Assembly (NCBI GenBank): GCA_030614305.1
Contig: JAUWKH010000017.1
Coordinates: 1-12,023, forward strand
DNA: 12,023 bases
Reading direction: 5' to 3'
Source: Bacteroidota bacterium
GTDB taxonomy: Bacteria; Bacteroidota; Bacteroidia; Bacteroidales; JADFUO01
Positions 1-12,023 of this stretch are shown in pieces; within the stretch, counting starts at the first letter, position 1; each line of letters starts with the position of its first letter. The notes under the pieces were generated by a model, which ran no database searches, was not told the DNA's origin, and was given only the letters and a program-made list of their open reading frames with translations. Position numbers and translations under genes: made by a program.

Positions 1-979
1 CATAAACTGCATTCAGTAATTTATTTTGAGATGTTATATCAATTATAAATTCCGGTGTTTGTGTTGAACAGGCTTTGACTTTTAAGTCAGGTTCAGTGAT
101 TTTATATTCTTTTTGAATTGTTTTTTCAAAATCTTCAACATATTTAATGAATTTGTTTTGGGATTTTGCAGGAACAGTAATAATTGCATAAGCTTCTCTT
201 GCAATGGCATTGCGTAAATTTCCACCGTCAAAGACAAACAATTTCATACCATATCTATTTGTTGCATTCCATAAAAGTCTATTCAGTATTTTATTTGCGT
301 TTCCCAGTCCTTTTTGTATGTCGTCGCCTGAGTGTCCGCCTTTTAAACCGCCGACAGTAATTTTAAAAGCAGTAATATTATCCGGAACACTTTCTTTTGA
401 AAAATGAAGATTAGCCAAAGTGTCTTTGCCACCGGCACAACCGATGAATAGCTCACCTTCGTCTTCCGAATCAAGGTTTAATAATATATTGCTTTTAAGC
501 AGGTCGGGTTTTAAACCGAAAGCACCTGTTAGTCCGGTTTCTTCATCAATGGTAAAAAGACATTCAATAGGTCCGTGATCAATATCGTTAGCTTCAAGAA
601 TAGCTAACTCTGCAGCAATCCCAATGCCGTCATCAGCTCCGAGTGTTGTTCCTTTTGCTTTTACCCATTCTCCGTCAATCCATGCTTGGATGGGGTCATT
701 ATCAAAATCATGGACAATATCGCTGTTTTTTTCACAAACCATATCAATATGACTTTGCAGAACAACGGATTTTACATTTTCTTTTCCTTTTGAAGCGGGC
801 TTCCTGATCAAAATATTGCCTGTTTCATCCTGTATTGTTTCAAGATTATGTTTTTGCCCGAATTTGATTAAATATTCCGCAATTTTTTCTTCCTTTTTTG
901 ATGGACGTGGAATTTTTAATATTTCCGTAAAATAATACCAGAGCCGCTCCGGTTTCAGATTTAATAGTTCTTTGTTCAT
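1..979 (-). CDS. pepD: Cytosolic Xaa-His / non-specific dipeptidase (M20 family), C-terminus missing
   Basis: This is an open frame from an ATG at 979 running off the left edge; 326 codons are present, against about 485 in the family. It should be a cytosolic dinuclear zinc dipeptidase that cleaves dipeptides such as aminoacyl-histidine. Visible in the translation: SHIDMVCEKN (H77 metal ligand, D79), TTLGADDGIG (D116, bridging metal ligand), TIDEETGLTGA (E146 general base, E147 ligand), LNLDSED (D170 ligand), and GGLKGGHSGDDI at 210-221, which is typical of the lid/dimerisation domain. The H77-D116-E147-D170 spacing matches what I recall for Vibrio PepD. The last metal-binding histidine and the rest of the catalytic domain lie beyond the window, so whether the gene is intact cannot be judged. 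It lies 58 bases downstream of the hybrid kinase stop and has its own possible -7 box. Confidence 0.95.
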   Translation of the reverse strand, partial: MNKELLNLKPERLWYYFTEILKIPRPSKKEEKIAEYLIKFGQKHNLETIQDETGNILIRKPASKGKENVKSVVLQSHIDMVCEKNSDIVHDFDNDPIQAWIDGEWVKAKGTTLGADDGIGIAAELAILEANDIDHGPIECLFTIDEETGLTGAFGLKPDLLKSNILLNLDSEDEGELFIGCAGGKDTLANLHFSKESVPDNITAFKITVGGLKGGHSGDDIQKGLGNANKILNRLLWNATNRYGMKLFVFDGGNLRNAIAREAYAIITVPAKSQNKFIKYVEDFEKTIQKEYKITEPDLKVKACSTQTPEFIIDITSQNKLLNAVY

Positions 980-1009
980 TCGTAAAAATTTAATTTAATT
1001 AATATCAGG

Positions 1010-1017
1010 CAAATTTA
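1010..1017 (-). promoter_or_regulatory. Possible -7 box upstream of pepD
   Basis: On the minus strand this reads TAAATTTG, an exact match to the Bacteroidota -7 consensus TAnnTTTG. It lies 30 bases upstream of the pepD ATG, the same distance as in the better-supported rpsO promoter. No TTTG-like -33 element is found 18-20 bases further upstream, so the call rests on the -7 box alone. Confidence 0.4.
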
Positions 1018-1037
1018 ATAGAATTTATTCGTAATTT

Positions 1038-3029
1038 TTATTTCAAATACTTATCAATTAAAGAAAGAAGTTTTTTAGCTTTTATTGGTTTTGTTATATA
1101 ATCATCACAACCTGCCTCAAGGGATTTTTCTTTATCACCTTCCAGAGCAAAAGCTGTTTGAGCTATAATAGGAATATCTTTATTTATTTTTTTAAGCTGT
1201 TTTGTCACTTCATATCCGCTAATATCAGGAAGTTGAATATCCATTAAAACCAAGTCAATTTCTTTATTTGATTCAAATGTACTGATAGCATCCTTTCCTT
1301 TTTTAGTCCATAATAAGCATGCTTTGGTTCTTTTAAGTGCTAATTCAATAAATTGATAGACGATTATATTATCTTCAACAACAAGTATTGTTTTATCTTT
1401 CCAGTCATAAAATATTTTATCGGCTTTTGTGTCTGTGCTTATGGGTTTTTCTTCGGGGTCAAAGGGTAAGGTAAAAAAGAAGGTTGATCCTCCTGCCTTG
1501 CCGGCAGGCAGGTTTCCTCCCTCTGATTCAACCCATATTTTGCCACCTAATAATTTTAATAATTTTTCAGTTATTGCCAAGCCCAATCCGATTCCACCGT
1601 ATTTTCGTGTATGCGAGTCATCCGCCTGGCGAAAAAGTTCAAAAATTATTGATTGTTTATCTTCAGGAATACCTATTCCGGTATCTTTAACATAAAATTG
1701 CAGAAATGAAATGTCATTATCAGTTTTGACCGTATAACCAAATTCAATTGTTCCCTGATGAGTAAATTTAAAAGCATTTTTAATAAGATTATTTAAAATC
1801 TGGCGGAATTTTGTTTCATCGGTGCATATAGTATCTTCTCCTTCTTCCAATTCATTATTTATGATTATATCAATTTGATTGTTTTGAATTTTATCATATT
1901 TAATAAAAGCAGTATTAATATCTTTTAGAGTCTTATTTAATGAAAATTTATCTTTACTTATCTTAATTTCATCTGCTTCAATTAACGAGATGTCAATGAT
2001 GTCGTTTACAATTTGCAACAGATCATTTCCGCTTGTAAGGATATTGCTACTAAAGTCCTTTACTTCATCTACAGAAAGTTCGGAGTTGGCTAAAATTTCT
2101 GAAAAACCTATTATTCCATTTAACGGTGTACGAAGTTCGTGTGACATTGTGGCTAAAAATGCTGATTTCAGCCTATCGGATTCTTCGGCTCTTTTCAGTG
2201 CTTGTTTTAAATCGCTTTCAGCTTGTTTGCGATCGCTAATATCATGGAAAATTCCGAAAGCTCCCTCATATTTTCCTTCATTATTAACTGTTGGTGTTGC
2301 AGTTACAGCGATAATTCTTTGTTCTCCATTTTTTCTGATGATTGTAAGCTCATATTGGCTTGATTCTTCTTGTTTTCTTAATTTGGTTTGGTCAAGGACT
2401 TTCCTGAACATTTCAGGACTTGTGAATTCCTTTAGGTTCTTTCCAATCATTTCTTCTTTTGAATATCCGAAAATATTTGCTAAAGCTTGATTTACAAAAC
2501 TAAAATTTTCATTTTCGTCAGCATAAGCTATTCCTTCAATTATAGTTTCAATCAAAGTACGAAACTTTTCTTCCGATTCAGATAATTCTTTTGTTTGTTT
2601 ATTTACTAATTTTTCAAGCTCTTTTTTTTTGGTTCTTAATATATCTTCGGCTTTTTTTATACGAAGCATAGCATTAAGCTGTGAGGAAAATTCGGGTGCA
2701 GTAATTGGCATTGTAAGGAAGGCATCGGCACCTGATTCCAAACCTTTAATGCGGCTACTGATATCAGTTTCTATTGCTGTTATCAGGATAACAGGAATAT
2801 ATTTAACAATTTCATCTGATTTTAATTGCTTACAAACATCAAATCCATTCATATCAGGCATAACAATATCAAGAAGGATAACATCGGGTAATTTTTCTTT
2901 TGCTATTTTTATTCCGTCAATGCCTGATTGTGTGGTTAATACTTCGCAGCCAGGAAACATATCTTCTAACCGTGCTTTAATAGCAGTGAGGTTATTTTTT
3001 TTATCATCAATTGTTAATATTTTTTCCAT
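1038..3029 (-). CDS. Cytosolic hybrid histidine kinase: REC-PAS-HisKA-HATPase-REC
   Basis: 663 residues with no signal peptide or membrane segment, so it is probably a soluble phosphorelay hub. Domains in order: receiver 1 (about 3-124; acidic D8/D9, phosphoacceptor D54, T84); a linker helix; PAS (about 152-268, ending FHDISDRKQAE); HisKA with SHELRTPLNG (H297); HATPase_c with N box NNLIKNAFKF (N418), G1 DTGIGIP (449-455) and G2 GGIGLGLA (478-485); receiver 2 (about 546-660; E552/D553, D597, T625, K647). There is no DNA-binding output domain. Two oddities. Receiver 1 reads ADAFLTMPI, with Met107 where the conserved Lys of the KP motif belongs. NLPAGKAG (506-513), just before the GSTFFFTLPF end of the ATPase domain, is encoded by a GC-rich palindrome. 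The gene starts 12 bases after the PPDK-regulator stop, so the two are probably co-transcribed. Signal and target are unknown. Confidence 0.95.
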   Translation of the reverse strand: MEKILTIDDKKNNLTAIKARLEDMFPGCEVLTTQSGIDGIKIAKEKLPDVILLDIVMPDMNGFDVCKQLKSDEIVKYIPVILITAIETDISSRIKGLESGADAFLTMPITAPEFSSQLNAMLRIKKAEDILRTKKKELEKLVNKQTKELSESEEKFRTLIETIIEGIAYADENENFSFVNQALANIFGYSKEEMIGKNLKEFTSPEMFRKVLDQTKLRKQEESSQYELTIIRKNGEQRIIAVTATPTVNNEGKYEGAFGIFHDISDRKQAESDLKQALKRAEESDRLKSAFLATMSHELRTPLNGIIGFSEILANSELSVDEVKDFSSNILTSGNDLLQIVNDIIDISLIEADEIKISKDKFSLNKTLKDINTAFIKYDKIQNNQIDIIINNELEEGEDTICTDETKFRQILNNLIKNAFKFTHQGTIEFGYTVKTDNDISFLQFYVKDTGIGIPEDKQSIIFELFRQADDSHTRKYGGIGLGLAITEKLLKLLGGKIWVESEGGNLPAGKAGGSTFFFTLPFDPEEKPISTDTKADKIFYDWKDKTILVVEDNIIVYQFIELALKRTKACLLWTKKGKDAISTFESNKEIDLVLMDIQLPDISGYEVTKQLKKINKDIPIIAQTAFALEGDKEKSLEAGCDDYITKPIKAKKLLSLIDKYLK
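1492..1512. repeat. GC-rich imperfect palindrome inserted in frame in the kinase gene
   Basis: Arms CCTGCC (1492-1497) and GGCAGG (1507-1512) flank the self-complementary core TGCCGGCA (1499-1506), with T1498 as a single bulged base. The element is 21 bases and strikingly GC-rich against the AT-rich surroundings. It encodes most of NLPAGKAG in the kinase, between the ESEGG and GSTFFF parts of the HATPase domain, which are nearly adjacent in relatives. In sequence style it resembles dispersed palindromic elements of environmental bacterial genomes. Only one full copy is seen here. Confidence 0.75.
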
Positions 3030-3041
3030 ATTATTATTTTT

Positions 3042-3857
3042 TTAACTTTCCACAGACATTTTTACTTTACCAATAATTGCCAGAATTTCAGAAGCTATTT
3101 CTTCAATAGGTTTGCTGGTTACTTTAATAACCGACCATTTTGGTTGTCTGTTAAAAATTGATTGAGCATATTCCAGTTCACGCCTAACATAGTCAAGTGA
3201 TGCGTAATCACCGGTATTACCACCAAAATATTCTTCTCTTACCTGACGTAGTGCTGACAAACGCCTTGCATTTGTAGTTAAACAAAAAACCCTATCAGTA
3301 GGAATTTTAAAAAGTGCATCGGGTGGTTGTATACCAAGTATTATAGGTACATTTGCAACGAACCAGCCTTTGAAGGCAAGGAAAATACTTAGCGGTGTTT
3401 TAAATGTACGGGATACCCCTAATAAAACTATTTCTGCCTTATACAATTCATTGGTTCTCAAGCCATCATCATGATTGAATGCAAATTGCATAGAATCTAT
3501 TCGTTTAAAATAATTTCTATTTAACTCATGAAATAACCCTGGTTTTTGTGATGGTACATTCTCAAACTGATCTGCTAAACGTGATAAAAGAGGCCCCATT
3601 AAGTCAATGGTTTCTATGTTACGCAATCTTCCGGCTCTGACCATTGCCTGTCTTACATTATTTTTTACCAATGTATGAGCTATGGAAGCATTTGCTTTTA
3701 CTGCTTCTTCAACTACATTTAATACTTGTTCTTTGGTGCGGACTTCAGAAAATTTAATAATATCAACAGTTATATCAGGAAATTGTGTTAAAGCAGCATT
3801 AAGTGCTTGCCGGGCTGTTCTTCCTGTTCCATCGGAAACTACAAATATTGTATACAT
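3042..3857 (-). CDS. PEP synthase / pyruvate,phosphate dikinase regulatory protein (bifunctional kinase-pyrophosphorylase, DUF299)
   Basis: 271 residues, close to the usual 270-280. The family inactivates PEP synthase or PPDK by ADP-dependent phosphorylation of an active-site threonine and reactivates it by Pi-dependent, PPi-forming dephosphorylation, so it sets the pyruvate/PEP balance. Seen: N-terminal VVSDGTGRTA, a HDDG motif (about residues 129-132), and the P-loop LLGVSRTFKTPLSIFLA (GVSRTFKT at 147-154). The family usually has Ser where Phe152 stands. A further conserved stretch is RRLSALRQVREEYF. I chose the start at MYTIFVVSDGTGR (3857) over an ATG at 3878, because the extra MSFIFTK is translated heptad repeat and family members begin near this point. 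It is followed after 12 bases by the hybrid kinase and preceded by rpe. The target enzyme is not in the window, and PPDK versus PEP synthase cannot be decided here. Confidence 0.92.
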   Translation of the reverse strand: MYTIFVVSDGTGRTARQALNAALTQFPDITVDIIKFSEVRTKEQVLNVVEEAVKANASIAHTLVKNNVRQAMVRAGRLRNIETIDLMGPLLSRLADQFENVPSQKPGLFHELNRNYFKRIDSMQFAFNHDDGLRTNELYKAEIVLLGVSRTFKTPLSIFLAFKGWFVANVPIILGIQPPDALFKIPTDRVFCLTTNARRLSALRQVREEYFGGNTGDYASLDYVRRELEYAQSIFNRQPKWSVIKVTSKPIEEIASEILAIIGKVKMSVES

Positions 3858-3863
3858 TTTAGT

Positions 3864-3923
3864 AAAGATAAAAGACAAAAGACAAAAGACAAAAGTAAAA
3901 AATTAAAAGACGAATTACGAATT
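3864..3923. repeat. Heptad tandem repeats filling the rpe / PPDK-regulator gap
   Basis: Four units of seven bases, AAAGATA then AAAGACA three times, run from 3864 to 3891, with a partial fifth to 3895. A second heptad, ACGAATT, occurs twice in tandem at 3910-3923 and overlaps the rpe stop codon. Together they take up most of the 64 bases between the two genes. The minus strand at 3897-3890 reads TACTTTTG, which fits a TAnnTTTG -7 box 32 bases before the chosen start, but no good -33 element accompanies it. Confidence 0.9.
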
Positions 3924-4575
3924 ATTCTTTTGATTTTAATTCAGAAATAGTTTTTTCAGGATTTTGTGAAGAAAATATAGTATAACCTGCTACTAAAACA
4001 TTAGTGCCGGCTTTTATTAAATCAGCAGCATTTGATAAAGTAACTCCTCCGTCAACTTCAATTAAAGCAGAAGAATCTGCATTATTGATAATTTGTTTTA
4101 ATTGTTTAATTTTCGAATATGTGTTTTTAATAAATTTTTGTCCGCCAAAACCCGGATTTACTGACATCACCAACACAACTTCAACATCAGAAATTATATT
4201 TTCAAGTAAATTAACATTCGTATGGGGATTAATGGCAACTCCTGCTTTAAGTCCTAATGATTTTATTGCCTGTATTGATCTGTGTAAATGGGTGCATGCT
4301 TCGTAATGGACGCTTATAATATCAGCACCTGCATTTTTAAATTTTTCAAAATAACGATCAGGATCAATTATCATCAGATGAACATCAAGAGGTTTTTGAG
4401 CATATTTTTTTATTTGTTTGATTACAGGAATACCAAATGAAATATTCGGAACAAAAACACCATCCATAACATCAATATGAAACCAGTCAGCTTCACTGCG
4501 ATTGATCATTTCAATATCACTACGGAGATTTGCAAAATCGGCTGATAAAATAGAAGGAGCGACTAGATGACTCAT
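3922..4575 (-). CDS. rpe: Ribulose-phosphate 3-epimerase
   Basis: 217 residues, the full family length, as a single TIM barrel. The enzyme interconverts ribulose 5-phosphate and xylulose 5-phosphate in the pentose phosphate pathway in the cytosol, using a bound divalent metal. Seen: APSILSADFANL (S8), HIDVMDGVFVPNISFG (H33 metal ligand, D35 catalytic acid/base, D38), DVHLMI (H66 ligand), VMSVNPGFGGQKFI (phosphate-binding loop) and EVDGGV (D175, the second catalytic acid/base and metal ligand). The C-terminal phosphate-binding loop reads VAGYTIF rather than the commoner AGSAIF; variation there is not unusual. The start MSHLVAPSIL fits homologues. The gene lies behind the sigma-factor terminator and has its own promoter candidate, so it is probably transcribed independently of the sigma gene. 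The stop overlaps a heptad repeat. Confidence 0.97.
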   Translation of the reverse strand: MSHLVAPSILSADFANLRSDIEMINRSEADWFHIDVMDGVFVPNISFGIPVIKQIKKYAQKPLDVHLMIIDPDRYFEKFKNAGADIISVHYEACTHLHRSIQAIKSLGLKAGVAINPHTNVNLLENIISDVEVVLVMSVNPGFGGQKFIKNTYSKIKQLKQIINNADSSALIEVDGGVTLSNAADLIKAGTNVLVAGYTIFSSQNPEKTISELKSKE

Positions 4576-4591
4576 ATATATATATTTGAAG

Positions 4592-4622
4592 CAAAATTAA
4601 TAAAAAGTATTATATGTCAAAG
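4592..4622 (-). promoter_or_regulatory. Promoter of rpe, Bacteroidota type
   Basis: On the minus strand CTTTG (4622-4618) is followed after 18 bases by TAATTTTG (4599-4592), an exact TAnnTTTG -7 box. It sits between the sigma-factor terminator and the rpe ATG at 4575, leaving a very short leader. The -7 box has the same sequence as the one upstream of rpsO. Confidence 0.65.
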
Positions 4623-4632
4623 TGTATAGAAC

Positions 4633-4662
4633 AAAAAAAGCGTTCTGTTTTAAGAACGCTTT
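4633..4662 (-). terminator. Intrinsic terminator of the primary sigma factor gene
   Basis: A perfect 10-bp stem, AAAGCGTTCT (4637-4646) with AGAACGCTTT (4653-4662), has a 6-base loop. On the minus strand the stem's trailing T's continue into four more (4636-4633), giving a seven-base U tract. The stem begins four bases after the sigma gene stop codon, so it ends that transcript cleanly. The plus-strand side has no comparable U run. Confidence 0.9.
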
Positions 4663-4666
4663 AAAT

Positions 4667-5530
4667 TTATCCCAAATAAGTTTTTAGAATTTTGCACCGC
4701 GAAGTATGTTTTAATCTTCTTATCGCTTTTTCTTTTATTTGTCGCACTCTTTCACGAGTCAAATCAAATTTTTCACCGATTTCTTCAAGTGTCATAGGAT
4801 GACTACCGTTTAACCCGAAATAAAGTCTTATAACATCTGCTTCACGGGAAGTTAAAGTAGAAATTGCCCTGTCAATTTCTTTTCTAAGCGACTCATAAAG
4901 TAATTCGGTTTCAGGAGTATTACTTTCATCCATCTTAAGCACATCATACAAATTATTATCCTCATCCTGAATCAAAGGTGCATCCATTGAAATATGACGA
5001 CCGGCATTTTTCATTGATTCTTTTATCTCGCGTTCAGTAATCTCAAGCATATCAGCAATTTCTTCAGAATTTGGTTCTCTTTCAAATTTCTGTTCAAGTT
5101 TAGCATGAGCCTTATTAATTTTATTAATTGAACCGATTTTATTCAGAGGTAAACGAACAATTCGAGATTGCTCAGCTAATGCCTGTAAAATAGACTGACG
5201 TATCCACCAAACAGCATAAGAAATGAACTTAAATCCTCTGGTTTCATCAAATCTTTGAGCTGCTTTGATAAGTCCGAGATTACCTTCATTAATTAAATCG
5301 GGCAGAGTTAATCCTTGATTTTGATATTGTTTTGAAACGGAAACAACAAAACGTAAATTTGCTTTTGTAAGTTTCTCCAGAGCTAACTTATCGCCCTGTT
5401 TAATTTTTTGAGCTAATAGAACTTCTTCATCTGCTGTAATAAGATCTACTCTTCCTATTTCCTGGAGGTATTTATCCAATGAAGCGGTTTCACGATTCGT
5501 TACCTGTTTGGTAATTTTTAGTTGCCTCAT
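4667..5530 (-). CDS. rpoD: Primary (housekeeping) RNA polymerase sigma factor, short Bacteroidota form
   Basis: 287 residues. It directs core RNA polymerase to housekeeping promoters. Region 1.2 (about 14-45, [20 protein letters not shown]) is followed by region 2 (52-122) with [35 protein letters not shown] and [16 protein letters not shown]. Region 3 spans about 130-205, and region 4 about 218-275 with a helix-turn-helix [20 protein letters not shown]. Region 1.1 and the long non-conserved insert of proteobacterial RpoD are absent, as is normal for the primary sigma factor of this phylum, which recognises TTTG / TAnnTTTG promoters. The start [10 protein letters not shown] fits relatives. 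It lies 330 bases downstream of pnp and is followed at once by a strong terminator. I found no convincing consensus promoter in the gap upstream. The symbol could equally be given as sigA. Confidence 0.97.
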
Positions 5531-5653
5531 AATTTATATAATGTAAAATTTAATTGTAATTGGTAAAAATTGTACGAAATATCATTAATTAAGTTACAAA
5601 AAAATTTACTATTGGCTATCATTCTAAAATTTTACTATTTAGCCTGAATAATT

Positions 5654-5810
5654 CATCACGCAAAGACGCAGAGGCGCAAAGATTTGAATTGGAACAATTT
5701 AATACCTGCAATAGTTTTTATATTATAAAATTAAATATTTTAAACACTTATTACTAATTTACTTATTCTTTGCGGCTTAGCTCTCGAAAGTTTTCGGGAT
5801 TGCGAAAGAT
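5654..5810. repeat. Non-coding pnp/sigma gap with an inverted-repeat element on CGCAAAG units
   Basis: The 330-base gap (5531-5860) has no credible gene. Its left part carries an 8-bp tandem, ACGCAAAG, ACGCAGAG, GCGCAAAG (5658-5681). About 90 bases later CTTTGCGG (5768-5775) is the inverted counterpart, followed by a small hairpin (TCTCGAAA 5782-5789 with TTTCGGGA 5792-5799, one G-T pair) and another GCGAAAG. The arrangement suggests a roughly 150-bp repeat element with degraded inverted ends. Between 5682 and 5767 there is only AT-rich sequence. I saw no TAnnTTTG box on the minus strand here, so the promoter for the sigma gene is unresolved. Confidence 0.6.
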
Positions 5811-5860
5811 TTTATGAATAATGCAGGTTAGACCAGACTAAATATTAAAATCCGTAATTC

Positions 5861-7996
5861 CTAACTTTTCGATGGTCTGGATAATAAAACTTTTCGTGAA
5901 AGCTTTAATTTACCGGTTCTGCTATCAATACCTATTAGTTTAACTTCTATTTCATCACCAACTTTTAAAACACTTTCAACGTTTTCCAATCGACTCCATT
6001 CAATTTCAGAAATATGCAGTAATCCATCTTTACCTGGAAGTATTTCAACAAAAGCCCCGAAAGGAACAATGTTTTTAACAACGCCTTTGTATATATCTCC
6101 AATTTCCGGAATTGCAACTATTTGTTTGATTTTTTCTTTGGCAGCTTCAATATCTTCTTTGTTGCTTGATACGATATCAATAATTCCAAGATCGCCTTCT
6201 TCTTCAATAACGATAGTAGTATTGGTTTCCTCTTGAATTTCCTGGATAACTTTCCCTCCGGGGCCGATTATTGCACCGATAAATTCCTTATGAACTGTCA
6301 TTTTTTCAATTCTTGGAACATGAGGTTTGTAATCTTCACGTGGTTGAGAAATAGTTTTTTCCATTTCGGAAAGTATATGTATTCGTCCTTCTCTGGCTTG
6401 TTCAAGTGCTTCTTGAAGAATATCGAAAGAAAGTCCTTCAACTTTTATATCCATCTGACAGGCAGTAATTCCATCTTTTGTTCCTGCAATTTTAAAATCC
6501 ATATCACCAAGATGGTCTTCATCACCCAAAATATCCGAAAGTATAGCAAATTTACCTGATTCATTATCAGTTATCAAGCCCATAGCAATTCCGGAAACAG
6601 GTTTTGATATTTTAACACCGGCATCCATTAAGGCAAGTGTACCTCCGCAAACCGTAGCCATTGATGAAGATCCGTTGGATTCAAGTATATCTGAGACAAT
6701 CCTGATAGTATATGGGTTCTCCATATCGTCAGGAATAACGTGTTTTAATGCCCTCCTGGCAAGATTACCATGACCAATTTCACGCCGGCTGGTTCCACGA
6801 ATTGGTCTTACTTCGCCTGTGGAAAATGCAGGGAAATTGTAGTGCAGCAGAAAATCGCTTTTACCTTCAAATACAACACCATCAATAGTTTGTTTGTCAA
6901 GTTTTGTACCTAAAGTAACTGTTACGAGCGACTGTGTTTCACCACGAGTAAAAATTGCTGAGCCATGTGCAGCCGGCAGATAATCAACTTCAGACCATAT
7001 TGGTCTTATTTCATCTGATTTTCTTCCATCCAGACGAATTTTTTCATTTAATACAGCATTTCTCACTGCTTCTTTTTCAATATCATGAAAATAACGGTCA
7101 ATTAATTTGGCTTTTGCCTCTTTGTCTTCTTCTGATAAGGTGCTGATAAATTCGTTTTTTACTGCTTCAATAGCTTCAGACCTTTCATGCTTACAATTAT
7201 TACCTGATTTTGCTATTTGATAGAGTTTATCGTAAGTGGCTTGTTTTAATGCTTCTTTAAGTTCAGCATCATTTTCTTCGTGAGTATATTCTCTTCTTAC
7301 CTTTGACTTTTCAATCATTTCAGCCAGCTCAAGCTGTGCCTGACATTGGACTTTTATTGCATTATGAGCAACTTTAATAGCTTCAAGCATTACTTCTTCT
7401 GATACTTCTTTCATCCCGCCTTCAACCATAATAATATTATCTATAGTTGCTGCTACTATAAGGTCAAGTTCGGCAGTTTCTAACTCTTTAATTGAAGGAT
7501 TGATAATAAAATCTCCATTAATTTTTGCCACCCTGACTTCAGAAATTGGTCCGTTAAAAGGTATATCCGAAATAGTTAATGCCGAAGAAGCAGCTAATGC
7601 AGCCAATGCGTCGGGTGCAGTGTCATTGCTTCCTGAAATTAATGTAATTATTACCTGAGTGTCACCGTGGAAATCATCAGGAAATAAAGGGCGAAGTGCT
7701 CTGTCAACTAATCTTGCAATTAATATTTCATATTCCGAAGGTCGTGCTTCTCTTTTAAAAAAGCCACCGGGAAATTTTCCTGTTGCAGCATATTTTTCTT
7801 TATATTCAACAGTAAGTGGCATAAAATCAACATTTTCCCTTGCTTCTTTTGTTGCAACTACCGTGGCAATTAGCATAGTATCACCCATCTTAACTACAAC
7901 AGCTCCATCTGCCTGATTAGCTAACTTTCCTGTTTCTATTGAAATGGTTCTTCCATCATCTAATTCAATTTTTTTTGTAATAACTGATTTTGACAT
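5861..7996 (-). CDS. pnp: Polyribonucleotide nucleotidyltransferase (PNPase)
   Basis: 711 residues, full length. The enzyme is a phosphorolytic 3'-5' exoribonuclease that releases nucleoside diphosphates in mRNA turnover and forms a trimer. Domains: first RNase PH-like (about 8-145, with [10 protein letters not shown] and RALRPLFP), an all-helical linker (about 240-310), second RNase PH-like catalytic domain (about 325-545, with [24 protein letters not shown], the GSSSM phosphate-binding loop at 442-446 and acidic [15 protein letters not shown]492/D498), KH (about 560-625, GPGG at 578-581) and S1 (about 632-702, ending KLKLSRKVL). I set the start at [12 protein letters not shown] (7996). A longer frame opens at 8044, but its ATG lies in the rpsO terminator hairpin and its 16 extra residues have no family counterpart. 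rpsO lies immediately upstream, the classic rpsO-pnp pair. Expression may depend partly on read-through, since I see no clear promoter of its own. Confidence 0.97.
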
Positions 7997-8028
7997 GATA
8001 TTTGTGTGTGTTTTATTAATTTGTATAC

Positions 8029-8057
8029 AAAAAAAGGCAATCAAAATTGCCCTTTTT
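8029..8057 (-). terminator. Intrinsic terminator between rpsO and pnp
   Basis: On the minus strand AAAAAGGGCAAT (8057-8046) pairs across the loop TTTG with ATTGCCTTTTT (8041-8031), with one bulged base, and the T run extends through 8029 (seven T's). It begins 39 bases after the rpsO stop and ends 32 bases before the pnp start. A terminator between rpsO and pnp is also known in Escherichia coli, where leaky termination feeds pnp; the same arrangement is inferred here. Confidence 0.8.
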
Positions 8058-8096
8058 ACATCTGTAATTTAATTCTGTAATATAAAATGTATAAGA

Positions 8097-8366
8097 TTAT
8101 TTTCTGATACCTAATTTTTTAATTATTACCCTGTATCTTTCTATGTCTATTTCTTTAAGATAATCAAGTAATTTTCTTCTTTTACCAACTAATCTAACCA
8201 ACGAACGTTCGGTATTAAGATCTTTTTTGTTTTTCTTTAAATGACCAGTTAGATGTTTGACTCTGAATGTAAATAAAGCAATTTGCCCTTCAGCAGATCC
8301 GGTATCAAATTCTGATTTTCCGAACTTCTTAAAAATATCTTTTTTTGTTTCCGTTGTTAAATACAT
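8097..8366 (-). CDS. rpsO: 30S ribosomal protein uS15
   Basis: 89 residues, the standard length. It binds the central domain of 16S rRNA early in 30S assembly and contributes to an intersubunit bridge. Seen: the N-terminal TETKKDIFKKFG; the family core DTGSAEGQIALFTFRVKHLT (about 22-41), with HLKKNKKDLNTERSLVRLVG following; and KRRKLLDYLKEIDIERYRVI near the C-terminus, all strongly conserved in S15. The protein is basic, as expected. It has a well-formed Bacteroidota promoter 30 bases upstream and a terminator downstream, with pnp following. The leader is only about 20-25 nt long if that promoter is used, too short for the pseudoknot by which E. coli S15 controls its own mRNA, unless that structure extends into the coding region. 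Confidence 0.98.
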   Translation of the reverse strand: MYLTTETKKDIFKKFGKSEFDTGSAEGQIALFTFRVKHLTGHLKKNKKDLNTERSLVRLVGKRRKLLDYLKEIDIERYRVIIKKLGIRK

Positions 8367-8395
8367 ATTATTTTTTTATTTTCAATTTCGGCGTG

Positions 8396-8427
8396 CAAAA
8401 TTAGAATAATCTTTTTATATATCAAAA
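8396..8427 (-). promoter_or_regulatory. Promoter of rpsO, Bacteroidota type
   Basis: On the minus strand TTTTG (8427-8423) is followed, after a 19-base spacer, by TAATTTTG (8403-8396), an exact TAnnTTTG box. The spacing fits the -33/-7 arrangement of Bacteroidota primary promoters. The start codon is 30 bases beyond the -7 box. Confidence 0.75.
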
Positions 8428-8446
8428 CTTTTTTTTATTATTTATT

Positions 8447-9634
8447 TTAGAAAGATAATTTTAACCGCATATAAAACATTTTTCCGTAATCTCCGAATTC
8501 AGTACCTGTATCACCGAGGAAAATTTGACCAATTAACAGGAAGCCGATATTTTCGGTTAAGGAGAAATCAAGAGAAGGACCTATATAAGCTGACTTATCA
8601 TTTGGGTTGAACATTCCTGAAAAATTTGCTTTTATCAAAGGTGTGACAGGATATGAAATCTCACCAAAAATTGAATATTTTGCTCTTGTATAATTTTTCG
8701 CCGAAATAGTTGTTTGCAAAGCTAATATGCTTCCCATGCTTGCAGGACCTGTTGTTCCGTCACTATTAAATAAAAAAGCAGCATGAATATAAAGACTGTT
8801 TTTAAAAGTATAGTTTATACCTGCCGAAGCAACTAATACTCCGGTAGAATCACTGAAATTTTCTTTGGATAGAAAATATGTTGCTTCGCCGTTAAAGCCG
8901 GCTCCTTTAATTTGACCTGACCATCCTGTACCTAAAACAATATCGTCTTCCATAATTCCGGCAAGAAATTGAAAATCATAATTCCATTTATTGAATTTAT
9001 ATAATCCTGCAAAAGTAACTTTGTTTTCCTTATTAATTTTATATGCCAATTGTGCGGAAGATGTCATGCCTGTGTAATACTGGATTTTTATGGCATCACA
9101 ACCCGGGCGTTCAATATAATCAAAATCAAAATAATTGAAAGTATTGAAGATGTCATTAGGAGTCCACACTAAATTTATTCCCCAGTTTATTCTTTGCCTT
9201 CCTATTTTTGCTTCAAAATTTCCTTTTGAAAATTCAAGATTAGCTCTGTCAAAGGTTGAATAAATAAAAAACGATGTGTCTTTTGCAATTAATCTTGTAA
9301 GGTCTAAATATCCATCATCAATAATCGCATAGTCGGCAAAAACCGGATAATATTCACCAACCATTTGTCCGTAATTCAAAACATTTCGCATTCCGAAATG
9401 AGCTGTTAAAAAACTCGTTGGATACCATCTGAAATCCAGACGGTTTTTAATTGTATTCATTGTCAGCCATTTTTTTTTGAAATCTTTTACCCAGACTGTT
9501 TCAAGTGTTTCAATATGACCGTTTAATGAATAATTCCTTGGCTTTTTATCGCCTTTTGCCTGTATGCTTTGATCAAGGAATATTAATAAAAAAAACAGAA
9601 AAATAATCTTTATTATGAAATTTAATTTTTTCAT
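8447..9634 (-). CDS. Outer-membrane beta-barrel protein, porin-like, function unknown
   Basis: 395 residues. A clear Sec signal peptide covers about 1-26: MKKLNFIIKI, then a run of Ile/Leu/Phe, ending DQSIQA before KGDKK. The mature part is rich in alternating hydrophobic/aromatic strands (for example AKIGRQRINWG, YFDFDYIERPG, VTFAGLYKFNKW, KNSLYIHAAFLFN, ENIGFLLIGQIFLG) and ends MFYMRLKLSF. The terminal Phe is typical of proteins inserted by the BAM complex. The strand GRQRINWGINLVWTPNDIFN followed by ERPG resembles porin-like families in which a GRQR.-.WG strand precedes a NP/PND.F turn. I infer an outer-membrane channel but cannot assign a substrate. The leader is nearly identical to that of the secreted LRR protein upstream, suggesting shared control. 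The stop is 80 bases before the rpsO start, and no terminator hairpin is obvious in that gap. Confidence 0.8.
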   Translation of the reverse strand: MKKLNFIIKIIFLFFLLIFLDQSIQAKGDKKPRNYSLNGHIETLETVWVKDFKKKWLTMNTIKNRLDFRWYPTSFLTAHFGMRNVLNYGQMVGEYYPVFADYAIIDDGYLDLTRLIAKDTSFFIYSTFDRANLEFSKGNFEAKIGRQRINWGINLVWTPNDIFNTFNYFDFDYIERPGCDAIKIQYYTGMTSSAQLAYKINKENKVTFAGLYKFNKWNYDFQFLAGIMEDDIVLGTGWSGQIKGAGFNGEATYFLSKENFSDSTGVLVASAGINYTFKNSLYIHAAFLFNSDGTTGPASMGSILALQTTISAKNYTRAKYSIFGEISYPVTPLIKANFSGMFNPNDKSAYIGPSLDFSLTENIGFLLIGQIFLGDTGTEFGDYGKMFYMRLKLSF

Positions 9635-9718
9635 AGAAGTTTATTTTTTGATATTTCCATTATTTTAGTTGAAAAGACTGTTCTTAAATATTTACTAATT
9701 ACGGATTACGTTTTCCGT
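9623..9718 (-). promoter_or_regulatory. Conserved leader, copy A (in front of the beta-barrel gene)
   Basis: It aligns over its whole length with 10931-11019, the leader of the LRR gene. By my count 79 of 89 aligned bases are identical, and copy A has one extra heptad, TTACTAA (9692-9698). Identity includes the first few codons (start of MKKL) and the segment farthest from the gene, which carries the inverted repeat ACGGA-N8-TCCGT (9701-9718). It could be a transcribed leader element or an operator. If the promoter candidate at 9774-9805 is real, the whole copy is 5' UTR. Confidence 0.75.
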
Positions 9719-9733
9719 TTTCCCGATTCGTTA
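9692..9733. repeat. Degenerate heptad array
   Basis: Six consecutive 7-base units each begin with TT: TTACTAA, TTACGGA, TTACGTT, TTCCGTT, TTCCCGA, TTCGTTA. The units are related but not identical. The first one is the heptad missing from the corresponding place in the LRR-gene leader (three units remain there, 11000-11020). Confidence 0.7.
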
Positions 9734-9773
9734 ATTTATTACACTATGCATTTATCCAATTATCAATTTCTCT

Positions 9774-9805
9774 CAAATCTAAAATCTAAAATCTAAAATC
9801 TCAAG
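9774..9805 (-). promoter_or_regulatory. Promoter candidate of the beta-barrel gene, with heptad repeats as its spacer
   Basis: On the minus strand CTTG (9805-9802) is followed after 20 bases by TAGATTTG (9781-9774), an exact TAnnTTTG box. The spacer is the AAATCTA heptad array, so a change of one repeat would alter the spacing by seven bases. Use of this promoter implies a leader of about 130 bases. Confidence 0.45.
9775..9802. repeat. Heptad tandem repeat AAATCTA, four units
   Basis: AAATCTA occurs three times in perfect tandem (9775-9795), followed by AAATCTC (9796-9802). It lies 10 bases past the LRR-gene stop codon (9812-9814) and upstream of the beta-barrel gene. Confidence 0.95.
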
Positions 9806-9811
9806 TATTCC

Positions 9812-10942
9812 CTATCTTATTATCAATTTTTTTCTTATTTTCGAATCGTTTGTAAGCAATTCAATAATATATATTCCTTGCCGGAGTTTTGAAACATCAA
9901 TTGAATTGGTTATTGATTTTTTATGAAATACTTTCTGCCCGATTTGGTTATAAATATTTACTTCATTTATAATTGTTCCATTATTGCAGGAAATAAAAAT
10001 CTCCATTTTTGCAGGGTTAGGATATATCAAAAATCCAGACTCGGCATTTATATTTGGAATCCCAATAGACTCACAAGCTTCTTCTACTTCTTCCGGGCTA
10101 TTACAACCCGTTGCGTTACTTTGGATATCAATTTGACCCATTGGATTAGATAAATAATCACATATCGACTGAACTTCACAAGTAGATAAAGATTCATTAT
10201 ATGAGATGTGTATTCCAGTTATAGTATTATAATCTATATTTTCAATACCAACTAAACTTGTAAGGTTATAATTTGCCCCAATATACAATTCACCTCCGAT
10301 TGAGCTTAAAGCCACCAATCCTGATAAACTTATCAGTTCATTGTTATCATAAATCCACAGGTCACCTCCTATTGATGTCAGAGCCTCAAGTCCGTTTAAA
10401 TTTGTTAAAGCGTCATTATTTCTGATTTCCATGTAATCAGCAATATAATTTAAAGCGTCAAGTCCTGTTAAACTTGTTAAGCTATCATTCGATCCAATAT
10501 ACAATAAACCATTTATAGATATAACAGCGTTTAACCCCGACAAATTTATCAGGGAATTGTTAAATTTAATAGCAAGAGATCCTTTAATTGATGACAAACC
10601 ACTTAAGCCTGACAAACTGGTTAGAGAGCAATTGTTATTAATAATAAATATTCCGATTGAAGATAATGTGTCTAAACCTGTTAAATTTGTTAGCAAATTG
10701 TTGTTTTGAATAACAAGATACCCCCCAATAGATTCAAGAACAATTAATCCGTTTAAATTAGTGATATCATTCCCATGAATCTCAACATTTCCCTCAATTT
10801 CAGTACAATTAGGGTGATTGATTTGGAAATTATCAATTTCTGCCTGAGTTGTAAATGTAATTCCTTCAGGCAGGCAGGGTTGGGATGAAACGGTAGCCTG
10901 GATGATGAAGGCTAAAACGATTAAGAAAATTAATTTTTTCAT
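9812..10942 (-). CDS. Secreted leucine-rich-repeat protein with T9SS C-terminal sorting domain
   Basis: 376 residues. A signal peptide (about 1-20, MKKLIFLIVLAFIIQATVSS) precedes a Cys-containing cap, QPCLPEGITFTTQAEIDNFQ (C23, C46). From about 53 to 243 come roughly eight 23-24-residue repeats of the pattern L-x-I-x-x-N, then LTxLxGL, then xxLxSIGG; examples are LYIGSNDSLTSLTGLDAL and LWIYDNNELISLSGLVAL. This resembles LRR/receptor-L-domain solenoids. A C-terminal cap has C255, C261, C280 and C290, probably disulfides. Residues about 303-376 are a type A T9SS sorting domain: FLIYPNPAKMEIFIS, IYNQIGQKVF, IDVSKLRQGIYIIEL, ending KKLIIR. The protein should pass Sec, fold in the periplasm and be exported by T9SS to the surface or medium. 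No catalytic domain is visible; binding or adhesion is the likely role, but the ligand is unknown. It shares its leader with the downstream beta-barrel gene. Confidence 0.92.
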   Translation of the reverse strand: MKKLIFLIVLAFIIQATVSSQPCLPEGITFTTQAEIDNFQINHPNCTEIEGNVEIHGNDITNLNGLIVLESIGGYLVIQNNNLLTNLTGLDTLSSIGIFIINNNCSLTSLSGLSGLSSIKGSLAIKFNNSLINLSGLNAVISINGLLYIGSNDSLTSLTGLDALNYIADYMEIRNNDALTNLNGLEALTSIGGDLWIYDNNELISLSGLVALSSIGGELYIGANYNLTSLVGIENIDYNTITGIHISYNESLSTCEVQSICDYLSNPMGQIDIQSNATGCNSPEEVEEACESIGIPNINAESGFLIYPNPAKMEIFISCNNGTIINEVNIYNQIGQKVFHKKSITNSIDVSKLRQGIYIIELLTNDSKIRKKLIIR

Positions 10943-11019
10943 AGCAGTTTATTTTTTAGTATTATTATTATTTTAGCGGAAAAGACTGTCCTTAAAGATT
11001 TACGGATTACGTTTTCCGT
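10931..11019 (-). promoter_or_regulatory. Conserved leader, copy B (in front of the LRR gene)
   Basis: Counterpart of 9623-9718; it lacks one heptad and differs at about ten other positions. It keeps the inverted repeat ACGGATTACGTTTTCCGT (11002-11019), which as RNA could form a 5-bp stem with an 8-base loop. The rest of the 214-base gap (to 11156) is AT-rich with no gene. Confidence 0.75.
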
Positions 11020-11052
11020 CCTTGCATTAAATAAGTTGACTATTTTGTACAT

Positions 11053-11060
11053 CAAAAATA
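11053..11060 (-). promoter_or_regulatory. Possible -7 box for the LRR gene
   Basis: The minus strand reads TATTTTTG, matching TAnnTTTG. No convincing -33 element lies 18-20 bases upstream. If used, the transcript would have a leader of about 100 bases containing conserved leader copy B, parallel to the arrangement proposed for the beta-barrel gene. Confidence 0.3.
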
Positions 11061-11132
11061 AGAAAAAAATGGTAACTTTAAGAAAAAATCAAGTAAAACA
11101 TAAACACCTCAATTCATGTATTTAATTTCAAC

Positions 11133-11146
11133 TTTTATCTTTTATC
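11133..11146. repeat. Short heptad tandem TTTTATC, two units
   Basis: TTTTATC occurs twice in tandem, followed by TTGTTTA, 10 bases downstream of the ABC ATPase stop. By itself it is too short to be notable. It is listed because it follows the same 7-base period as the other intergenic arrays. Confidence 0.6.
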
Positions 11147-11156
11147 TTGTTTAAAT

Positions 11157-11843
11157 CTACATCCTATTCTCATCACTTGTTACCTTTCCGTCATCAATAG
11201 TTATAATACGTCTGGCTTTATCCATAACTCTTTGGTCGTGAGTTGAGAAGATAAATGTTATTTTTGATTCTTTATTCATTTTTTGCATGATATCCAACAG
11301 GTCGTTTGTTGATTTGGAATCAAGATTTGCAGTGGGTTCATCTGCTAAAATAAACTTTGGTTCAGAGGCTAATGCCCTTGCAACCGAAACACGCTGTTGC
11401 TGACCGCCTGAAAGATCACCTGGCCGGTTATTTATTTTATCGCCGATTCCAACCGCATTTAGCAATTCTTTTGCTCTCTTGTTACGCTCGTTTTTTGATT
11501 TGCCCTGCAATTCCATTATAAAGGCTACATTTTCAATTGCAGTTAAAACCGGAATTAAATTAAATGATTGAAATACAAATCCTATGTTATGTAATCTGAA
11601 ATCTATTAATTTTCTTGATTTCAATTTACTGATATTTTTACCGTTAATACGTATTTCTCCTGCTGTTGGTGTGTCTAATCCTCCAATTAAATTCAAAAAA
11701 GTTGTTTTTCCTGAACCTGAAGGTCCAACCACAGCAGAAAATTCTCCTTCTTCAAATGATAAATCAATACCATTAACAGCTTTAACAGGGACTTTGGTGT
11801 CCTGGTAAACTTTGTGCAAATTTTTAACTTCTATGATTCCCAT
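11157..11843 (-). CDS. ABC transporter ATP-binding subunit, MacB/LolD class
   Basis: 228 residues, one complete nucleotide-binding domain. Seen: Walker A GPSGSGKT (40-47), Q-loop Q92 in FVFQSFNLIP, signature LSGGQQQR (144-151), Walker B FILADE (164-169), D-loop NLD, and H-loop H202 in FSTHD. The FNLIPVLTAIENV stretch and overall length are typical of the MacB/LolD/FtsE-like class, which powers mechanotransmission-type exporters and lipoprotein-release complexes rather than import. Its FtsX/MacB-type permease partner is not seen. Downstream comes a 214-base gap and then the LRR gene; upstream, 180 bases of repeat-rich non-coding sequence run to the window edge. The partner is therefore either beyond the right edge or elsewhere. 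Substrate cannot be inferred. I found no TAnnTTTG box in the upstream gap. Confidence 0.95.
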   Translation of the reverse strand: MGIIEVKNLHKVYQDTKVPVKAVNGIDLSFEEGEFSAVVGPSGSGKTTFLNLIGGLDTPTAGEIRINGKNISKLKSRKLIDFRLHNIGFVFQSFNLIPVLTAIENVAFIMELQGKSKNERNKRAKELLNAVGIGDKINNRPGDLSGGQQQRVSVARALASEPKFILADEPTANLDSKSTNDLLDIMQKMNKESKITFIFSTHDQRVMDKARRIITIDDGKVTSDENRM

Positions 11844-11910
11844 TTTTATTATAATTTATAAGTATTTTATTGTAATTAATTATTGTATTATTCTGATTAT
11901 TTTTTTCTGT

Positions 11911-12023
11911 GTAGTCCTTATGGGCAGATGGACTTTTACTTTTTACTTTTTACCCATACGGGCTAATGAAACGAAGTAAATCCGTATGACTAAAAGGAAT
12001 CCGTATGGATGGACTTCGTGTCG
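11911..12023. repeat. Nested inverted and direct repeats at the right edge
   Basis: CCATACGG (11954-11961) is the exact inverse of CCGTATGG (12001-12008). TCCGTATG occurs twice in direct order (11981-11988, 12000-12007). ACGAAGT (11971-11977) is the inverse of ACTTCGT (12013-12019). In front lies a 6/7-base ACTTTTT tandem (11932-11953), preceded by TCCTTATGGGCAGATGGACTT-like sequence that resembles TCCGTATGGATGGACTT at the end. The whole gap upstream of the ABC gene (11844-12023) shows no credible gene. The element continues past the window edge, so its type cannot be settled. Confidence 0.65.

Follow-up and report, generated by a model that had tools for sequence, protein, structure and literature searches.

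Similar leaders of two adjacent genes in a Bacteroidota genus: probably an old local duplication that includes a common heptanucleotide repeat

We analysed a stretch of 12,023 nucleotides (hereafter the window; assembly GCA_030614305.1, contig JAUWKH010000017.1, positions 1 to 12,023) from a Bacteroidota bacterium of the order Bacteroidales, in which two adjacent genes are preceded by similar leaders of about 90 bp. The gene order on the minus strand is an ATP-binding cassette (ABC) transporter ATPase gene, a leucine-rich repeat (LRR)-type gene, a barrel-like gene and the gene for ribosomal protein S15. The genome of the window (G000) is a draft of 2.1 Mb in 413 contigs and is 81% complete. 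The genus was represented by four species with one fragmented draft each (G000 to G003), where G000 is the species of the window. The features of the locus are as follows, all on the minus strand.

8447..9634, barrel-like protein gene, 395 amino acids (aa); a DUF1302 match that falls short of the curated cut-off and none in NCBIfam; found in all four species
9612..9634, first codons of the barrel gene (MKKLNFI), part of the similarity
9635..9695, barrel leader core of 61 nt, adjoining the ATG upstream; 95% identity (57/60) to the barrel leader of G001
9690..9724, array of heptads ahead of the barrel gene: units GGGAAAA/CGGAAAA followed by CGTAATC CGTAATT AGTAAAT (three CGTAA-type units); Tandem Repeats Finder (TRF) period 7 at 9709-9723; CGTAATY match with one mismatch at 9695-9710
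9771..9801, array of AGATTTT heptads (sense) just 3' of the LRR stop codon; TRF period 7, 4.4 copies
9812..10942, LRR-type (Recep_L_domain) protein gene, 376 aa, with a type IX secretion sorting tail; at the locus in two of the four species
10920..10942, first codons of the LRR gene (MKKLIFL), part of the similarity
10943..11003, LRR leader core of 61 nt, adjoining the ATG upstream; identity of 85% with the G002 LRR leader and 84% with the G000 barrel leader
10998..11019, array of heptads ahead of the LRR gene: CGGAAAA CGTAATC CGTAAAT (two CGTAA-type units), including an inverted repeat reported earlier
11157..11843, ABC transporter ATPase gene, LolD-like but under the NCBIfam cut-off; the upstream neighbour that anchors the locus

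Global alignment of the minus-strand leaders at 9623-9718 (96 bases) and 10931-11019 (89 bases) gave 10 mismatches and one 7-base gap, exactly as an earlier reading of this DNA from its letters (the sequence-only reading) had described. The aligner placed the gap as GTAATTA; shifted inside the repeat, it becomes TTAGTAA in sense, i.e. TTACTAA on the plus strand. In a search of the whole draft genome the pair was found with E=2.0e-25, and the intergenic parts by themselves scored 87, compared with a maximum of 41 among 1000 Markov-1 random pairs. ACGGAAAACGTAATCCGT occurs exactly at two places in G000, both at this locus, and with up to two mismatches at one extra place (G000:C99:940, one mismatch). 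Both genes lie on the minus strand, so that the leaders are upstream of the starts at 9634 (barrel) and 10942 (LRR). They adjoin the two ATGs directly, and the similarity extends about 23 bases into both coding regions. The LRR and barrel proteins are alike only in MKKL and a generic signal-peptide-like start. The sequence-only reading was thus correct that the copies sit directly ahead of start codons and that the genes as a whole were not duplicated.

The 5' part of the leaders consists of heptads. In sense orientation it reads CGGAAAA CGTAATC CGTAATT AGTAAAT in the barrel leader of G000, CGTAATT CGTAATC CGTAATC CGTAAAT in that of G001, and, in degenerate form, CAGAAAA CATAAAC CGTAAAT in the LRR leader of G002. 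Hence, the orthologous barrel leaders also differ by one heptad, with three units in G000 and four in G001. CGTAATYCGTAATYCG with at most one mismatch had 18, 51, 68 and 39 matches in G000 to G003 (counts that overlap, since longer arrays were counted more than once), compared with 0, 1, 0 and 0 for the reversed pattern. Exact matches occurred in 13 of 60 genomes, comprising the four of the genus and nine others, while the reversed pattern occurred in one genome, three times.

All 63 CGTAATY arrays in 59 stretches chosen from the listed matches were intergenic, including the leader array of G001; open reading frames make up 89% of the bases in 26 contigs of the genus that were not picked for a heptad match. 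Among the 48 arrays with both neighbours known, the nearest gene boundary was a stop codon in 33, and 19 lay between convergent genes. The corresponding baseline for intergenic bases in the 26 contigs was 44% nearest to a stop codon and 11% convergent (P=0.0004 and 4e-7, respectively), and in a larger, partly match-picked set 47% and 14% (P=0.0016 and 2e-5); these P values are optimistic, because arrays are shared between species. CGTAATY arrays thus favour gene ends and convergent regions. Many stretches of the larger set came from contigs with earlier matches, which overstates heptads, and the tallies were therefore redone on the 26 contigs (178 kb). Here, period 7 accounted for 10 of 28 short exact arrays, compared with 4 of the 14 arrays found across 300 kb from other families. 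By genome, it accounted for 4 of 16 arrays in G000, where period 6 has five, and for 6 of 12 in G001. In the window itself, 6 of the 16 TRF rows had period 7. The intergenic regions of the genus hold varied tandem heptads (AAAGACA, ACGAATT, TCTAAAA, TTTTACT and CGTAATY), with examples in the window at 3864-3895, 3910-3924, 9771-9801, 11132-11148 and 11934-11953.

The 5' portion of the leader is an ordinary member of this genus-wide heptanucleotide tandem repeat. Since it belongs to a dispersed heptad array, the 7-base gap is best read as a change in repeat number, in which one unit would have been gained or lost by slippage. The inverted repeat at the end of the leader, which had been suggested as an operator, turned out to be the junction of two heptad types, (CGGAAAA)(CGTAATC)CGT, of which the CGTAATY type is nearest to gene ends in the 33 of 48 arrays noted above. 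Placement at gene ends had been named beforehand as indicating a simple dispersed repeat; it was found for the CGTAATY heptads, whereas the core occurs in four exact copies at one locus.

Comparable repeats have been described elsewhere. According to MacGregor 2015 (PMC4679880), TAACTGA direct repeats occur in Beggiatoaceae, in Cyanobacteria and in some Bacteroidetes, most genomes in which such repeats abound have heptanucleotide repeats as their commonest class, and close relatives differ by 7-nt steps in heptad arrays; between two close Cyanothece strains, length changes were mostly 7-nt steps. The same paper mentions other heptamer direct repeats in two Bacteroidetes. The arrays described here likewise consist of tandem, intergenic 7-nt units. 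In contrast, their unit is CGTAATY and its relatives rather than TAACTGA, and they are mostly nearest to a stop codon, whereas most sets in the Beggiatoaceae genome lie just upstream of start codons in that text (PMC4679880).

The search of G000 with the leader gave 41 matches, and 40 of 57 first-look candidates were scored. Among the candidates scored, only the two stretches of this locus matched over the full length of the leader. The next-best match was the start region of an LRR paralogue (G000:C400; E=3.5e-8, query 69-111 of 121), which has the ATG-proximal part of the leader and the first codons in common with it. This paralogue (L072:2082-3211) is split into frames of 283 and 91 aa, and is either a decayed gene or an assembly error. 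Checking 28 of the 39 weaker matches (L003-L030), we found 13 that open with an MKK reading frame of at least 90 aa at the aligned ATG, and these cover only the start-proximal half of the leader. Weak leader matches were present in all 60 genomes searched. The weak matches checked in G000 largely reflect the composition of start regions (an A-rich flank plus ATGAAAAA).

The core motif TTTAAGRACAGTCTTT occurred without mismatch in four copies in the four genomes of the genus, all at this locus: before the LRR and barrel genes of G000, before the barrel gene of G001 and before the LRR gene of G002. With up to two mismatches, matches (7, 7, 8 and 7 in G000 to G003) were fewer than those of the reversed control (15, 17, 16 and 12), and hence only the four exact matches were counted. 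A one-mismatch copy lies within the barrel coding region at 8791-8806, and likewise in G002 and G003; it is probably a chance occurrence retained through the protein. Of 393 genomes of the order, two had a longer core pattern with at most three mismatches, at three places in all, and both belong to the genus; the reversed control had two matches. This fixed-spacing pattern misses the G001 copy, which has a one-base deletion and was found by the other searches. An exact-pattern scan of a collection of 85k species, which may leave out the genome of the window, gave no leader copy outside the genus and returned only the G002 and G001 copies. The leader is present before both genes in G000, before the barrel gene only in G001, before the LRR gene only in G002, and before neither in G003, so that it is retained on the barrel gene in two of four species and on both genes together in one. 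These results do not support the proposed reusable cassette that co-regulates surface proteins: the leader was found only before the two adjacent genes of one locus.

The product of 8447..9634 is likely a barrel protein, judged from its sequence; DUF1302 was its sole match, with 21.7 bits against a curated cut-off of 23.2 bits. Identities of the barrel gene were 98.1% between G002 and G003, 95.5-95.6% between G001 and these two, and 93.8-94.3% between G000 and the others. Identities of the ABC gene rank the species in the same way, whereas its four-fold sites do not separate G001, G002 and G003 (88.4-89.7%). In G003, the ABC gene is followed straight by the barrel gene, without LRR gene or leader. 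In G002, the LRR gene has the leader and the barrel gene has a different upstream region. The barrel gene of G002 apparently starts at TTG (L069:172), and its upstream region is unlike those of G000 and G001. In G001, the leader stands before the barrel gene, while the LRR gene and its leader are missing between recognisable flanks: after the ABC gene both flanks of the LRR gene are joined without the gene, with the last 18 coding bases and the stop codon retained, and the upstream region of the barrel gene matches the LRR-barrel spacer of G002. The absence of the LRR gene from G001 is most simply explained by deletion, though contig ends leave a gap.

In the four-sequence alignment of the cores, all three parsimony-informative sites group barrel with barrel and LRR with LRR, and none groups the copies by genome. 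This implies that the duplication predates the split between G000 and G001 and that each copy followed its own gene. An even earlier date, before the deepest split of the genus, was considered and withdrawn, because the barrel tree does not fix the root.

Little in the core pointed to a function. No conserved RNA fold was found in the four cores (RNAalifold, 0 pairs), single-sequence fold z-scores were -1.37, -0.38, -0.35 and +0.82, and the leader had no Rfam match up to E=1. The folding of the aligned leaders, which the sequence-only reading had recommended as a check, therefore argues against a structured RNA leader or riboswitch. A terminator search returned no terminators. Promoters of Bacteroidota typically have a TTG at -33 and TAnnTTTG at -7, and no such pair (with at most one mismatch in the -7 box) was found inside any of the four cores. 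Exact -7-like boxes in G000 lie further up, at -118 for the LRR gene, without TTG, and at -147 for the barrel gene, with TTG. Sigma-70-like sites numbered 13 in the whole region, compared with 9.8 expected by shuffling. The LRR cores diverge at the rate of four-fold sites (52/61 = 85% versus 86%). The base at position -3, which is important for initiation in F. johnsoniae (PMC6847099), varies across the four leader copies (G, T, G and A). As in the initiation regions of Bacteroidota (Baez 2019, PMC6847099), the leader is A-rich directly before the ATG and has no Shine-Dalgarno sequence, whereas just one of its four copies has the favourable A at -3. From these sequence features we conclude that the 61-nt core would be an AT-rich 5' flank plus a translation-initiation region without Shine-Dalgarno sequence, under weak constraint at most. 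A regulator common to both leaders appears to have little positive support.

We consider it probable that the similarity reflects an old local duplication of the leader at one locus, combined with a common heptad repeat unit, and that it is mostly ordinary. The two leaders would then be paralogous copies of one gene-flanking 5' region of about 90 bp. This region most likely belonged to the LRR gene. Before the split of G000 and G001 it would have been copied ahead of the adjacent barrel gene, perhaps by a short recombination event anchored at the common A-rich start (ATGAAAAAATTA). From then on each copy would have followed its own gene and drifted, at most weakly constrained, and one heptad gained or lost by slippage would have left the 7-base gap. 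That the paralogue G000:C400 has the ATG-proximal part suggests the LRR gene as the donor. Several points weigh against this account. The direction of copying rests on that one paralogue, and the sample consists of four fragmented drafts, with the G001 region spread over two contigs. Pairwise identity makes G000 the outlier, yet the barrel tree attaches the distant outgroups G049 and G055 by G003 (23% support), and the choice between losses of the barrel leader in G002 and G003 and its late gain depends on the root. Furthermore, the core could be a transcribed leader, given that G000 has a TTG and TAGATTTG pair 147 nt ahead of its barrel start; two of the 13 sigma-70-like sites lie at equivalent places in the cores (10992-10964 and 9687-9659, 9 of 12 matches); and the barrel core is somewhat more conserved than four-fold sites (57/60 identical versus 85%, binomial P about 0.015 in one post hoc test).

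The last two of these points, together with the placement of the leaders exactly before both ATGs, would also fit a genuine co-regulatory 5' element (a promoter, an operator or a binding site in the 5' untranslated region) kept for joint expression of both envelope genes. We regard such an element as unlikely, as the copies coexist in only one of four species, the barrel genes of G002 and G003 lack the leader, the LRR cores diverge neutrally, and the cores have neither a conserved fold or Rfam match nor a -33/-7 pair, and differ at the -3 base. The first interpretation of the leader thus stands as far as its upstream, gene-linked position is concerned, and falls as regards a reusable operator cassette. 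It is quite improbable that the LRR gene was inserted or tandem-duplicated upstream of the barrel gene, with the leader as a flanking direct repeat able to excise it. The leader-LRR-leader geometry of G000 and the absence of the LRR gene from the locus in two of four species suggest such an arrangement; neither absence fits, however, since some LRR 3' sequence still follows the ABC gene in G001 and no leader is left in G003, and on these junctions excision between direct repeats was rejected. A mobile or dispersed repeat inserted twice, by chance before a start codon each time, is disfavoured and very improbable: the 5' heptads do belong to a dispersed repeat, whereas the core itself has four exact copies at one locus, and the pattern search of the 393 order genomes gave none in the 389 outside the genus.

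A separate element was found in the upstream regions of the LRR paralogues G001:C29, G001:C32 and G002:C167, which carry a different block and not the leader of the window.

L289:1223-1300 (G002:C144:7122-7199), 78-bp block; copies in L278-L297 and L129-L131

With at most 40 candidates scored per genome, the block had 25 matches in the genus (1, 11, 8 and 5 in G000 to G003), of which three partial rows were dropped, leaving 22 copies. All 22 were intergenic, 20 had a gene start downstream in sense orientation, and three belonged to LRR paralogues; three pairs resemble one gene in two species. Out of 149 genomes searched, the four of this genus had the 78-bp version, with at least 18 matches when six candidates were scored per genome. 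Its consensus contains TTTACTATTTTAGC, judged to be -7-like, and a GGAGTTT/AGACTCC hairpin with 91.7% of cells paired in 19 copies; covariation of this hairpin did not exceed that of shuffles, since 210 of 500 had at least as much, and 7 of the 19 copies have a broken outermost pair. Rfam gave no match in 10 of the loci with the block. The proteins downstream were diverse by eye, without a family search, which does not resemble a surface-protein regulon. On its sequence, the block is a candidate for a lineage-specific mobile promoter.

In promoter capture, promoter propagation and mobile promoters, the 5' region of one gene comes to stand before a different one. The leader of the window likewise appears to be the 5' region of one gene gained by another; unlike in those processes, it would be a single local event, and its promoter activity is putative. 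Tentatively, the surface-protein genes of this genus may have been rewired repeatedly by transferable upstream blocks, with the barrel gene having taken the window leader once from the LRR gene next to it, and with a dispersed, promoter-like block of 78 bp, unrelated to that leader, serving LRR paralogues and many other genes; we think this possible but doubtful.

The apparent leader differing by one heptad thus resolves into a probable old local duplication plus a common repeat, which cautions against taking heptads for operators. If the wider idea is true, regulation in this lineage would have evolved repeatedly through capture of upstream regions, with the 78-bp block as its lineage-specific mobile promoter, and transcription would be expected to start just after TATTTTAG. 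The block, so far detected only in this genus, offers an example on which the spread of promoters in uncultured Bacteroidota can be tested.

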